This document shows positions 2,563 through 24,250 of a DNA stretch of 37,595 nt, piece after piece. Made by a program: the position numbers and the translations under genes. Location: contig JAFVVN010000011.1 of NCBI GenBank assembly GCA_017502125.1, positions 1 to 37,595 of the forward strand, in the 5' to 3' direction. This DNA comes from Bacteroidales bacterium. GTDB taxonomy: Bacteria > Bacteroidota > Bacteroidia > Bacteroidales > UBA932. Every line of letters starts with the position of its first letter. The first letter of the stretch is position 1. The notes below the pieces were generated by a model that searched no databases, was not told the DNA's origin, and saw nothing but the letters and a program-made list of their open reading frames with translations.

Positions 2563-3570
2563 TCAGAGTCCCTTGATATCCTCCACCGCCAGTCCAGTCG
2601 CTTGAGCGATGATCTCAACATCCACTCCAAGGAGTTTGAACTTCCTGGCAGCATCTGTGTTTGCCTCCTGCCTTCCCTCCTGCCTTCCCTGCTCCCGACC
2701 TTCTTCCCGTCCTTCCTCTCGTCCCTGCTCCAGTCCTCGCATATGACCTCTGATTTCAGCCTCTTCTGCTGCGGTGTTGATTATGTTCTGATAATCTCCC
2801 ATGTTATCTAATGATTTTGCATATTGTTCAAATTCCTCGGCTGTAAATTTATTAATTTCAGCGAGGAAAAACAAACGTCTGAACAGGGGCTCGTCCAATT
2901 CTTTCGGAATTTCCGTCATTTCGTGCATATGTCTCAGCAGATACATCCATTTCTCGAAGACCGTCTCCAGCTCCCAGATGCACTTGTTGAACCTCCCGAG
3001 CTCCAGGAACACGAACCTCAGCACATCCGTCATCACCTCATGACTGCCGTCCTCCCGGAGCCTGTATGACGACCTGTACCTATCCTCCGGCCAGTCACCC
3101 AGATGAGCAAACCTAAAATTCAGAATGGCCACAACCGTGACAGACTTCAAGTTATAGTCCCAGTCGAACTTTGCATCAGTCTTGCCCTCGGCCTTCTCCT
3201 TGACGAACTTGTCTCTGGCGTCCCTCGCTTGCTCGTTGATGGGATAGGTCGTATAATACAGCGCCCTTTTCCTGAAGTGCTTCTGGAATCCCTTCTGCAT
3301 CTCGATGATGAGGGTCTCTCCGTTGTTACATTCAGCCGAGATGTCGAATATGACCTTCCTGTCCTCTTCCGTAAGACCGAGGTGCTCGTTGGGGATGAAG
3401 TTCACCGTCTTGATCTCCTTGTCCTCCAGAATCATGTTCAGGAAGTCCTTCAGGACATCCTTGTTAGCCTCGCTTCCGAACAGTCGTTTGAACATGAAGT
3501 CACACAGCAGTTCGGCGTACTTCTGCCTGCTTTTCTTCTCCTCCACAATTGAACTGTCTATTGTTCTCAT
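2563..3570 (-). CDS. Rpn/PDDEXK-family nuclease (transposase-like)
   Basis: A 335-residue protein of the Rpn recombination-promoting nuclease / PD-(D/E)XK transposase-like family (PF12784 type). Support: the N-terminal D-F-M-F-K-R-L-F-G block (residues 24-32), the nuclease core with Asp76 and the E-x-Q motif at 90-92, a following L-Y-Y segment, and a C-terminal A-T-G-L-x-V-E-D-I-K-G-L ending usual in this family. In family members the core cleaves DNA and promotes RecA-independent recombination. Before the C-terminus lies a low-complexity run of (G-R-E-E)/(G-R-Q-E) repeats (about residues 278-300), encoded by imperfect 12-bp DNA repeats. It is encoded opposite to both neighbours and next to repeat-rich DNA, so it looks like an accessory gene. 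The start is ATG 3568-3570. Confidence 0.85.
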   Translation of the reverse strand: MRTIDSSIVEEKKSRQKYAELLCDFMFKRLFGSEANKDVLKDFLNMILEDKEIKTVNFIPNEHLGLTEEDRKVIFDISAECNNGETLIIEMQKGFQKHFRKRALYYTTYPINEQARDARDKFVKEKAEGKTDAKFDWDYNLKSVTVVAILNFRFAHLGDWPEDRYRSSYRLREDGSHEVMTDVLRFVFLELGRFNKCIWELETVFEKWMYLLRHMHEMTEIPKELDEPLFRRLFFLAEINKFTAEEFEQYAKSLDNMGDYQNIINTAAEEAEIRGHMRGLEQGREEGREEGREQGRQEGRQEANTDAARKFKLLGVDVEIIAQATGLAVEDIKGL

Positions 3571-20937: not shown

Positions 20938-20975
20938 AAAAAGAACTCCAGGGGTCGCCTGGAGTTCTTTTTCTT
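20936..20975. terminator. Bidirectional terminator between folD and guaA
   Basis: A perfect 12-bp stem (20941-20952 with 20958-20969, loop GGTCG) is flanked by A residues on the left and TTTTTC-type sequence on the right. It can therefore stop transcription of folD on the plus strand and of guaA on the minus strand. Confidence 0.92.
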
Positions 20976-22281
20976 ATTCCCACTCGATGGTTGCCGACGG
21001 CTTCGGCGAGAGGTCGTAGCATACTCGGTTCACGCCTGGAACCTCAGCGAGGATCCTGTCTGTGATCTTCATCAGGATAGGCCAGTCGATCTGTTCTATG
21101 CTTGCAGTCATGGCGTCGATGGTGTTCACGGCGCGGATGATCACAGGCCAGTCGTATGAACGTGCATTGTTGCGTACTCCCACTGACTTGAAGTCCGGAA
21201 CCACTGTGAAGTACTGCCATACCTTCTTGTCGAGACCGGCGAGGGCGAACTCCTCACGGAGGATTGCGTCTGCCTCGCGAAGAGCCTCGAGACGGTCACG
21301 GGTGATAGCTCCAAGGCAGCGTACTCCGAGACCTGGTCCTGGGAACGGCTGACGGTACACCATCTCATATGGAAGTCCGAGCTCCACTCCGCATGCACGG
21401 ACCTCGTCCTTGAAGAGCTGCTTGAGCGGCTCGACGAGTTCGAACTGGAGGTCGTCAGGCAGACCGCCTACATTGTGGTGAGACTTCACCATCTTTGCTG
21501 TCTTTGTACCGCTCTCAACGATATCAGGATAAATTGTTCCCTGACCGAGGAAATCGATTCCGTCGAGCTTGCGTGCCTCCTCCTCAAATACACGGATGAA
21601 CTCTCCGCCGATGATCTTTCTCTTCTGCTCAGGGTCTGCAACTCCTTCGAGAAGACCGAGGAAACGGTCTGTAGCATCTACATATATAAGGTTAGCGCTG
21701 AGCTGGTTGCGGAACACTTCCACAACATTCTCGCTCTCACCCTTTCTCATGAGTCCGTGGTTCACATGCACGCACACGAGGTTGTCACCGATAGCCTTCA
21801 GAAGGAGGGCTGCAACCACTGAGCTGTCCACGCCGCCTGAGAGTGCAAGGAGGACCTTGCGGTCTCCCACCTGTCTGCGGACGAGTTCGATCTGGTCAGC
21901 CACGAAATTCTTCATGTTCCAGTTTGCCTCAGCCTTGCATGTGTCGAATACGAATGATTTCACTGCCTCTTTCACGCTCTCCTCGTCGTTAGTGAACTCA
22001 GGAAGCTTCACCTCGCAGAGTGCCTTGTCGTGACCTGCGGCCATCACAGGAAAACCTGCTTCGTAGATTTCAGGAAGGACATCGATCGCAACACCGTCTA
22101 TCACATTGTTCGGACCCCCGTTGATGATGATTCCCTTGACGTTTGGCAGTGCCTTCAGCTCTGCAGCAGTAATGTCGTGCGGATAGATTTCGCTGTAAAC
22201 TCCCAGCGCGCGGATAGCTCTTGCAACCACTGTGTTCTCATGGCTGCCGAGATCCAGAATTACAATCATGTCCTGTTTCAT
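20974..22281 (-). CDS. guaA: GMP synthetase with degenerate, shortened glutaminase domain
   Basis: Converts XMP to GMP. The synthetase half is intact: P-loop S-G-G-V-D-S-S (148-154), the R-Q-P-F-P-G-P-G-L-G-V-R block, and the canonical I-E-W-E C-terminus. The N-terminal domain starts normally (I-L-D-L-G-S, then I-I-I-N-G-G-P), but where family members have L-G-I-C-Y-G with the nucleophile Cys, this protein has V-M-A-A-G-H-D (79-85). The next roughly 80-90 residues, which hold the catalytic His and Glu, are missing. Homology resumes at F-V-F-D-T-C (110-115) and W-N-M-K-N-F. Total length is 435, against about 505-525 usual. It cannot be a normal glutaminase: it probably uses free ammonia or a separate amidotransferase. 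The frame is open throughout, so this is not a simple frameshift. Confidence 0.9.
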   Translation of the reverse strand: MKQDMIVILDLGSHENTVVARAIRALGVYSEIYPHDITAAELKALPNVKGIIINGGPNNVIDGVAIDVLPEIYEAGFPVMAAGHDKALCEVKLPEFTNDEESVKEAVKSFVFDTCKAEANWNMKNFVADQIELVRRQVGDRKVLLALSGGVDSSVVAALLLKAIGDNLVCVHVNHGLMRKGESENVVEVFRNQLSANLIYVDATDRFLGLLEGVADPEQKRKIIGGEFIRVFEEEARKLDGIDFLGQGTIYPDIVESGTKTAKMVKSHHNVGGLPDDLQFELVEPLKQLFKDEVRACGVELGLPYEMVYRQPFPGPGLGVRCLGAITRDRLEALREADAILREEFALAGLDKKVWQYFTVVPDFKSVGVRNNARSYDWPVIIRAVNTIDAMTASIEQIDWPILMKITDRILAEVPGVNRVCYDLSPKPSATIEWE

Positions 22282-22444: not shown

Positions 22445-24250
22445 ATGGATATTAGAAACATAGCAATCATCGCTCATGTGGACCACGGCAAGACAACGCT
22501 CGTGGACAGGATGATATATCAGGCGCGTCAGGCGCGCGAGCAGGAAAAGCTGGGAGAGCTCATCCTTGACAATAATGACCTTGAAAGGGAGCGCGGAATC
22601 ACTATTCTTGCAAAGAATGTGTCTGTAGTATATAAAGGTGTAAAGATCAATGTCATAGATACTCCGGGACATAGCGATTTCGGAGGTGAGGTGGAGCGTG
22701 TGCTCAACATGGCTGACGGTGTGATCCTTCTCGTGGATGCGTTCGAGGGATGTATGCCCCAGACGAGGTTCGTGCTCCAGAAAGCCATCGAGATGGGCAA
22801 GAAACCGGTGCTCGTCATCAACAAGGTGGACAAGCTGAACTGCCGCCCAGACGAGGTTCAGGAGGAGGTGTTCGACCTTATGTTCGCTTTGGGAGCGACT
22901 GAGGACCAGCTTGATTTCCGCACCATATATGGAAGTGCGAAACAGGGCTGGATGTCTCATGACTGGAAGCAGCCTACCAATGACATCACAGCTCTCCTGG
23001 ACACCATCCTTGAGGTCATACCTGCCCCGGAAATGGTGGATGGAACCCCTCAGATGCTCATTTCTTCACTTGAATATTCCCCATATGTGGGACGTATCGC
23101 CGTGGGAAGGGTTACCCGTGGATCCCTCCAGGCCGGAATGAACATCACCCTATGCAAAAGATATGATATCCAGCAGAAGCAGAAGATCAAGGAACTCATG
23201 ATCTTTGACGGACTCGGAAAGTCAAAGGTGGACCAGGTGCAGTGTGGAGACATCTGTGCTGTGGTGGGTCTGGAAGGCTTCGAGATCGGAGACACGATAG
23301 CGGACTTCGAGAATCCGGAGGCCCTGCCTCCTATCGAGGTGGACGAGCCTACGATGAGCATGCTCTTCTGCATCAACAATTCACCGTTCTTCGGCAAGGA
23401 AGGAAAGTTCGTCACCTCACGTCACCTGAAGGAACGTCTTGAGAAGGAGCTTGAGAAGAATCTCGCCCTCAGGGTGAAGCCGGGTCCGAATGCCGATTCG
23501 TTCATCGTGTATGGCCGTGGTGTCCTTCATCTCTCTGTCCTCATCGAGACAATGCGTCGTGAGGGCTTCGAACTCCAGGTGGGACAGCCTAAGGTGCTGG
23601 ACAAGGTGATAGGAGGCCAGCGCTGCGAGCCTATCGAGAACCTGACCATTGACCTTCCTGAGGAATTTGTGGGAAGAGCCATAGAGATGGTCACACGCCG
23701 CAAGGGTGCCCTCATCCAGATGGAGGGAAGGGGAGACAGGACTCACCTCGAATTCGATATTCCTTCGCGCGGACTTATGGGGCTGAGGAGCAACCTCCTC
23801 ACGGCCACCCAGGGAGAAGCTGTGGTCGCTCACCGTCTGAAGGGCTATGAACCATATAAGGGTGATATCGAGCGTCGTACCAACGGCTCGCTCGTGTCCC
23901 TTGAGACAGGTCTTTCCGTGGCCTATTCGATGGATAAGCTTCAGGACCGCGGACGTTTCTTCATCGAACCGGGAGTGGAAATATATGAGGGTCAGGTCGT
24001 GGGAGAGCACACCCGTGAGCGTGACCTTAACATCAATATATGCAAGACCAAGAAACTCACCAATATGCGTGCTTCAGGAAGTGACGACAAGGTCATGCTC
24101 CCTCCTCCTATAGTCTTCTCGCTTGAAGAGGCGCTTGAGTATATCCAGGAGGATGAGCTTGTGGAAGTTACTCCGAAGTCAATGAGACTTAGAAAGATTA
24201 TTCTTAACGAAATTGAGCGCAAAAGAAAAAGTTTGGACATAAATTGTTAA
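22445..24250 (+). CDS. typA: Ribosome-associated GTPase TypA/BipA
   Basis: A translational GTPase of the elongation-factor family that binds ribosomes and supports 50S assembly and growth under stress. The 601 residues match the usual length. The GTPase signatures are all present: A-H-V-D-H-G-K-T-T (10-18), R-G-I-T-I, D-T-P-G-H and N-K-V-D. Downstream are the EF-G-like domains and the TypA-specific C-terminal region, with G-R-G-V-L-H-L-S and R-K-G-A-L-I-Q-M-E-G-R-G-D-R. Start ATG 22445 gives M-D-I-R-N-I-A-I-I-A-H-V-D-H-G, the normal N-terminus. Confidence 0.96.
   Translation: MDIRNIAIIAHVDHGKTTLVDRMIYQARQAREQEKLGELILDNNDLERERGITILAKNVSVVYKGVKINVIDTPGHSDFGGEVERVLNMADGVILLVDAFEGCMPQTRFVLQKAIEMGKKPVLVINKVDKLNCRPDEVQEEVFDLMFALGATEDQLDFRTIYGSAKQGWMSHDWKQPTNDITALLDTILEVIPAPEMVDGTPQMLISSLEYSPYVGRIAVGRVTRGSLQAGMNITLCKRYDIQQKQKIKELMIFDGLGKSKVDQVQCGDICAVVGLEGFEIGDTIADFENPEALPPIEVDEPTMSMLFCINNSPFFGKEGKFVTSRHLKERLEKELEKNLALRVKPGPNADSFIVYGRGVLHLSVLIETMRREGFELQVGQPKVLDKVIGGQRCEPIENLTIDLPEEFVGRAIEMVTRRKGALIQMEGRGDRTHLEFDIPSRGLMGLRSNLLTATQGEAVVAHRLKGYEPYKGDIERRTNGSLVSLETGLSVAYSMDKLQDRGRFFIEPGVEIYEGQVVGEHTRERDLNINICKTKKLTNMRASGSDDKVMLPPPIVFSLEEALEYIQEDELVEVTPKSMRLRKIILNEIERKRKSLDINC

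Follow-up and report, generated by a model that had tools for sequence, protein, structure and literature searches.

Can a guanosine monophosphate (GMP) synthetase still make GMP once its glutaminase domain has lost the catalytic residues, and which nitrogen donor would it then use? The question is raised by a short guaA gene in a 37,595 nucleotide (nt) stretch of DNA from a Bacteroidales bacterium (contig JAFVVN010000011.1 of assembly GCA_017502125.1), i.e. the whole stretch analysed here, hereafter the window. The open reading frame (ORF), located at 20974..22281 on the minus strand and encoding 435 amino acids (aa) plus a stop, is called form A below. Our comparison of sequences from public genomes makes it rather probable that form A is a real GMP synthetase, which would aminate xanthosine monophosphate (XMP) with free ammonia and without glutamine hydrolysis. 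Its parts are as follows:

20974..22281, minus strand: short guaA (form A), encoding a GMP synthetase in which the glutaminase domain is reduced to a remnant (ORF and profile matches)
21994..22281, minus strand: remnant of the glutaminase, aa 1-96, which corresponds to the beginning of a class I glutamine amidotransferase (GATase) fold and is, by prediction, an ordered unit (PF00117; TIGR00888; predicted local distance difference test, pLDDT; ratio of non-synonymous to synonymous polymorphism, pN/pS)
22027..22047, minus strand: VMAAGHD, residues 79-85, at the nucleophile elbow site, VFGVCYG in E. coli (alignment)
21910..21993, minus strand: linker, aa 97-124, under the weakest constraint within the protein (pN/pS 0.144)
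20977..21909, minus strand: ATP pyrophosphatase (ATPPase) and dimerization domains, aa 125-435, complete (TIGR00884, PF00958)
21820..21840, minus strand: P-loop SGGVDSS, aa 148-154 (translation, alignment)
21472..21489, minus strand: lid-loop motif VKSHHN, aa 265-270 (alignment; the counterpart in the P. falciparum enzyme, PfGMPS, is IK(T/S)HHN, PMC10526850)

Structure and conservation of the short GuaA

A preliminary description of this DNA had placed SGGVDSS at residues 148-154 and VMAAGHD at 79-85, both of which are present, and had described the synthetase half as apparently complete, which is borne out by profile matches over the full length of TIGR00884 (454.6 bits, cut-off 338.75, positions 1-310 of 310) and of the dimerization domain PF00958 (125.3 bits, 1-92 of 92). 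The GMP synthetase motifs SGGVDSS, KSHHN and KDEVR, following the published definitions (P-loop SGGVDS, IK(T/S)HHN and KD(D/E)V; PMC10526850), are all retained. For the GATase half, TIGR00888 is matched at positions 1-75 of 188 with 50.2 bits versus a cut-off of 172.15, and the Pfam family PF00117 at positions 1-76 of 190 only, i.e. the similarity to class I GATases is limited to residues 1 to ~81, the start of that domain. Alignment with the full-length GuaA of E. coli and Bacteroides fluxus showed that the catalytic Cys, His and Glu (Cys86, His181 and Glu183 in E. coli) are deleted or replaced in the window protein and that the segment carrying the elbow Cys and the His and Glu of the HPE motif is missing; the deletion junction cannot be placed to one residue, because MAFFT and phmmer disagree.

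Compared with the bacterial two-domain GuaA (NF000848; E. coli 1GPM), form A therefore shares the ATPPase and dimerization domains, the motifs and the fold, with the remnant matching the beginning of the GATase domain in alignments, but it lacks the Cys-His-Glu triad and is ~82-90 residues shorter, i.e. 82 aa relative to the B. fluxus enzyme (517 aa) and 90 relative to that of E. coli (525 aa; PMC10526850), in agreement with the in-frame loss of 70-90 residues described before. Since form A scores 545.4 against a cut-off of 400 with the NCBIfam profile 'glutamine-hydrolyzing GMP synthase', automatic annotation would call it glutamine-hydrolyzing.

The short form was found in 80 kept loci of public genomes, 73 of them complete and 7 cut by contig ends, with a few assemblies contributing two loci. 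This recurrence rules out a frameshift artefact as well as the assembly error for which the preliminary description had allowed. Form A recurs in many gut Bacteroidales, and its presence in sequenced, named Bacteroides, i.e. B. fluxus and B. clarus, answers the earlier question of whether related genomes carry the variant. Both parts of the protein are under purifying selection, with a pN/pS of 0.079 for the remnant (aa 2-96), which rules out a decaying pseudogene, and of 0.102 for the synthetase part. All 78 different coding sequences of 435 aa have Gly at residue 83 and Cys at residue 89, and in the predicted structure the remnant forms a block with a pLDDT of 81-96 up to residue 110.

In the mechanism we propose, the ATPPase half would form adenyl-XMP, as other GMP synthetases do, and cytosolic NH3 would then attack this intermediate. 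In known GMP synthetases the ATPPase makes adenyl-XMP independently of the GATase domain and accepts external ammonia (PMC10526850). The remnant may have been retained for structure, i.e. for lid-loop support or active-site closure, with no glutaminase chemistry involved. In PfGMPS, His20 of the GATase domain contacts Glu374 beside the lid loop (PMC10526850), and as the remnant covers the N-terminal region that holds His20 in PfGMPS, a role in lid closure may reasonably be inferred.

Carriers, guaB linkage and the search for a partner glutaminase

The full 435-aa form A was present in 8 of 61 genomes of the genus sample, and the family sample (149 genomes) added 8 carriers from four other genera. 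Among the matches listed, none of these 16 genomes has a full-length GuaA, including G064, which is 99% complete; G071, G091 and G109 each gave a second match, and the GATase census described below shows no GuaA-type GATase in them. Neither a second GuaA nor a stand-alone GuaA glutaminase was found in the window's own genome, the assembly of which is 78% complete. Sixteen further genomes were reached via named records, with full-length GuaA present in one (G573) and undetected in 15, for which completeness values are lacking and two of which have a form A gene split by contig ends. More widely, form A occurred in 7 of 295 genomes of the order sample, from four families, while in the phylum sample (247 genomes, strict E <= 1e-20) the window was its sole occurrence, with none outside the Bacteroidales.

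A different picture emerged in a genus-level sample around B. fluxus, where 13 of 60 genomes carry an intact form A and 12 of these 13 also a full-length GuaA; in B. fluxus itself the two genes stand in tandem, 40 bases apart. In one more genome of this sample (G253:C1:3460004-3460912), form A is broken by an in-frame TAG, and a full-length GuaA is present as well. Such coexistence would suit a regulatory or back-up paralogue, with GMP made mainly by salvage or by a full-length GuaA missing from the assembly, and genes can indeed escape detection at contig ends, as seen below for cytidine triphosphate (CTP) synthase. We nevertheless regard this explanation as unlikely, given that the full form was not found in 16 of 16 family carriers at up to 99% completeness, that the ATPPase motifs are retained and that copies linked to guaB exist.

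The product of guaB makes XMP, the substrate of GMP synthetase. By motif search, 11 of the 80 form A loci have a guaB upstream in the same orientation, at a distance of 34-81 nt in six and of 274-581 nt in five; three of the 11 guaB genes were scanned with the inosine monophosphate (IMP) dehydrogenase profile TIGR01302, and all three scored above its cut-off. At locus L119, an ORF of 134 aa without family match lies between guaB and form A. The same motif search placed guaB 1-21 bases upstream of seven genes for two related stand-alone synthetases, i.e. form B (~330 aa, 67-78% identical to form A) and form C (~320 aa, ~50% identical). The form C loci L030, L031, L032 and L058 represent a lineage of their own, located directly behind guaB in three of the four.

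The preliminary description had also suggested that a separate amidotransferase subunit might be recruited, like that of the two-subunit GMP synthetase of archaea. The archaeal ATPPase subunit (6JP9, 2DPL) resembles form A in having no working glutaminase on the same chain, and its layout is matched by forms B and C, whereas form A retains the remnant. The GATase of the archaeal enzyme is a subunit of its own, and no such subunit was found for form A. Our census of class I GATases (PF00117) covered 25 chosen genomes and the window's own, all but G033 without detected full-length GuaA. No second GuaA-type GATase was found among its 13 form A genomes, several of which are incomplete assemblies, and in G032 (91% complete) and G039 (94%) the remnant was the sole class I GATase match. 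In the window, no GATase was seen beside guaA, although not every ORF was scanned. These results make a recruited subunit very unlikely.

Two ~200-aa GATases, in G146 and G198, had been candidates and are both HisH, the former scoring above the TIGR01855 cut-off and the latter lying amid his genes. Seven carrier GATases of 239-287 aa were read, of which five have a signal-like start and two were profile-scanned, with gamma-glutamyl-gamma-aminobutyrate (GABA) hydrolase as the best fit, below its cut-off; none of this size class was counted as a GuaA partner. As a separate observation, the census detected no class I GATase domain at all in G057 (94% complete), G006, G009 and G038, four genomes whose sole GMP synthetase match is form B.

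Since form A has no glutaminase on its own chain and the search for a partner found none, the simplest nitrogen donor is free ammonia. The preliminary description had named it as one of two likely consequences, and it still appears the best reading; those record titles of relatives that give a sampling site mostly name gut sites. Ammonia-type members are known from ammonia-dependent nicotinamide adenine dinucleotide (NAD+) synthetase, which also belongs to the PP-loop amidotransferases (PMC3376133) but acts on another substrate and is of another family.

Other glutaminases of the carriers

The claim that the loss is specific to GuaA holds within the window, where PurL and PurF retain their Cys by motif, but not genome-wide. 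CarA of the window's own genome (G000:C21; L001:925-2034) has the triad G-S-E, i.e. both Cys and His are lost (reference E. coli Cys269, His353 and Glu355). The CarA triad is broken in 14 of 16 family sequences; CarA was detected in 11 form A genomes, and 10 of them have a broken triad. Either the Cys is replaced by Gly, Ser or Asn, or it is retained and the His is lost. By motif, seven of the 16 stretches show the start of carB behind carA, at a distance of ~190 bases in the window's genome; the remaining nine gave no match to the motif. As the triad is lost in the window's family, carbamoyl phosphate is probably made from ammonia there as well. A precedent is human CPS1, in which the glutaminase domain is inactive, its Cys being replaced, and ammonia comes from outside (PMC4655335). 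The broken CarA of the carriers would work alike, although CPS1 is a urea-cycle enzyme of animals and CarA here belongs to gut bacteria.

For CTP synthase the evidence is mixed. A search for its N-terminal domain (PF06418) gave no match in 10 of 13 form A genomes and in 30 of the 149 genomes of the family sample, including 15 of 83 near-complete ones. However, pieces of the CTP synthase C-terminus with the HPE retained (L263, L264) lie at contig starts in G146, one of the ten, and in G109, which has such a piece besides a complete gene. Absence elsewhere may therefore be assembly loss, and we dropped the idea that CTP synthase is absent in the ten carriers.

The triads of 47 complete or near-complete PyrG genes (reference E. 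coli Cys379, His515 and Glu517) were also read. None of the three from form A genomes is intact (A-M-H, C-L-D and S-M-D), versus 34 of 35 from genomes with full-length GuaA, alone or with form B, the exception being G044 (G-H-E). The triad is also intact in 3 of 4 form C genomes (form C assigned by size and identity, one being in the tree) and in all five remaining genomes, in which GuaA is unclear or was not detected. At L092, L096-L098 and L227 (G096, G071, G109, G091 and G044), the CTP synthase combines a complete synthetase domain with a broken triad. The full-length GuaA of 14 family genomes retains C-H-E throughout.

Taken together, the view of form A as an ammonia-using GMP synthetase is supported by the complete synthetase half with its motifs, purifying selection on both parts, the missing full-length GuaA in 16/16 genus and family carriers and 15/16 further genomes, the upstream guaB, the lack of a GuaA-type partner in 13 carriers, the broken CarA triads, the contrast in PyrG between form A and full-length GuaA genomes, the existence of form C as a second stand-alone lineage apart from form A, and an ATPPase that, in the enzymes studied, functions independently of the GATase and can use ammonia (PMC10526850). 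Several points weigh against it. The window assembly is incomplete, as stated, and most Bacteroides carriers have both forms. Carrier counts are not independent, because carriers share ancestry. CarA is intact in the form A genome G091, and its comparison includes only one relative with full-length GuaA (G033, intact). The three broken PyrG of form A genomes all come from genus g12, CTP synthase pieces turned up at contig starts, and the Cys is retained in both PurL and PurF of the window. Lastly, the Michaelis constant (Km) of other GMP synthetases for NH4+ is 10.8-174 mM (PMC10526850), so that an unadapted enzyme would work poorly on ammonia and a lower NH4+ Km is predicted for form A.

History, gene neighbourhood and significance

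The synthetase domains of 93 rows, including 36 of 106 form A rows, were placed in a quickly computed maximum-likelihood tree, with support from the Shimodaira-Hasegawa-like approximate likelihood ratio test (SH-aLRT) only. Forms A and B and two 429-aa IMG/VR sequences make up one group (99, starred), in which form B is nested beside the 429-aa forms (100, starred), and form B therefore looks like form A after loss of the remnant. The 429-aa form, found on the IMG/VR contigs L180 and L181, is an intermediate one. The four form C rows cluster together (100, starred) and join full-length sequences (99, starred) apart from form A, which indicates that the glutaminase was lost at least twice. Two long-branch full-length rows attach to the A/B group, a join flagged by the program as possibly false.

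Form A identity between the family and the Bacteroides group averages 88.8% (42 pairs), whereas TypA of the same genomes reaches 69.6%; the corresponding values are 87.6% and 81.0% within the family across genera (17 pairs) and 93.3% and 96.9% within the genus (3 pairs), for 13 of 15 genomes, i.e. without G026 and G071. These flat form A distances suggest transfer between families. Caution is advised, since full-length GuaA is 68.5% identical within the family (10 pairs) and 71.2% between the family and Bacteroides (30 pairs), values that rest on 5 family sequences.

Transfer would also suit selection by glutamine-analogue inhibitors for an enzyme devoid of the Cys that they attack; the GATase of GMP synthetases is inactivated by 6-diazo-5-oxo-L-norleucine (DON) and by acivicin (PMC10526850). 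Such an escape leaves both the guaB link and the retention of Cys in PurF and PurL unexplained, and we give it hardly any credence. Mobile elements at the guaA 3' end are listed for other bacteria (PMC5704250); nothing tied such elements to the window gene, and this origin was rejected.

In the window, guaA is flanked by folD, to which it is convergent, and by typA, from which it diverges:

22445..24250, plus strand: divergent neighbour of guaA (gene order), which we take to be typA/bipA

In relatives, the slot beside typA is occupied by form A, B, C or full-length GuaA. The purine genes purE, purL, purF-like, purM-like and purH of the window were assigned from Pfam matches, and purD and folD from their translations. 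Inspection by eye revealed an inverted repeat between folD and guaA (20938-20972) that has runs of T on either strand; a terminator scan reported none beside guaA. A gene for a PD-(D/E)XK family transposase is located at 2563-3570, upstream of the purine genes.

It is tempting to speculate, and seems possible, if somewhat less than evenly so, that a lineage of gut Bacteroidales lost class I glutaminases in parallel and thereby moved the synthesis of GMP, carbamoyl phosphate and, in places, CTP from glutamine to free ammonia, and that an ammonia-type GMP synthetase with a conserved half-glutaminase was passed between families. The broken CarA triads make it testable whether steady hindgut ammonia relaxes the need for glutaminases. 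Form A also offers a natural system for asking which roles a glutaminase domain has beyond ammonia production. GMP synthetase is a textbook example of a glutamine-using enzyme, and according to a review all those studied prefer glutamine as their physiological donor (PMC10526850). A widespread, conserved form of it without glutaminase would alter models of nitrogen flow in gut bacteria.
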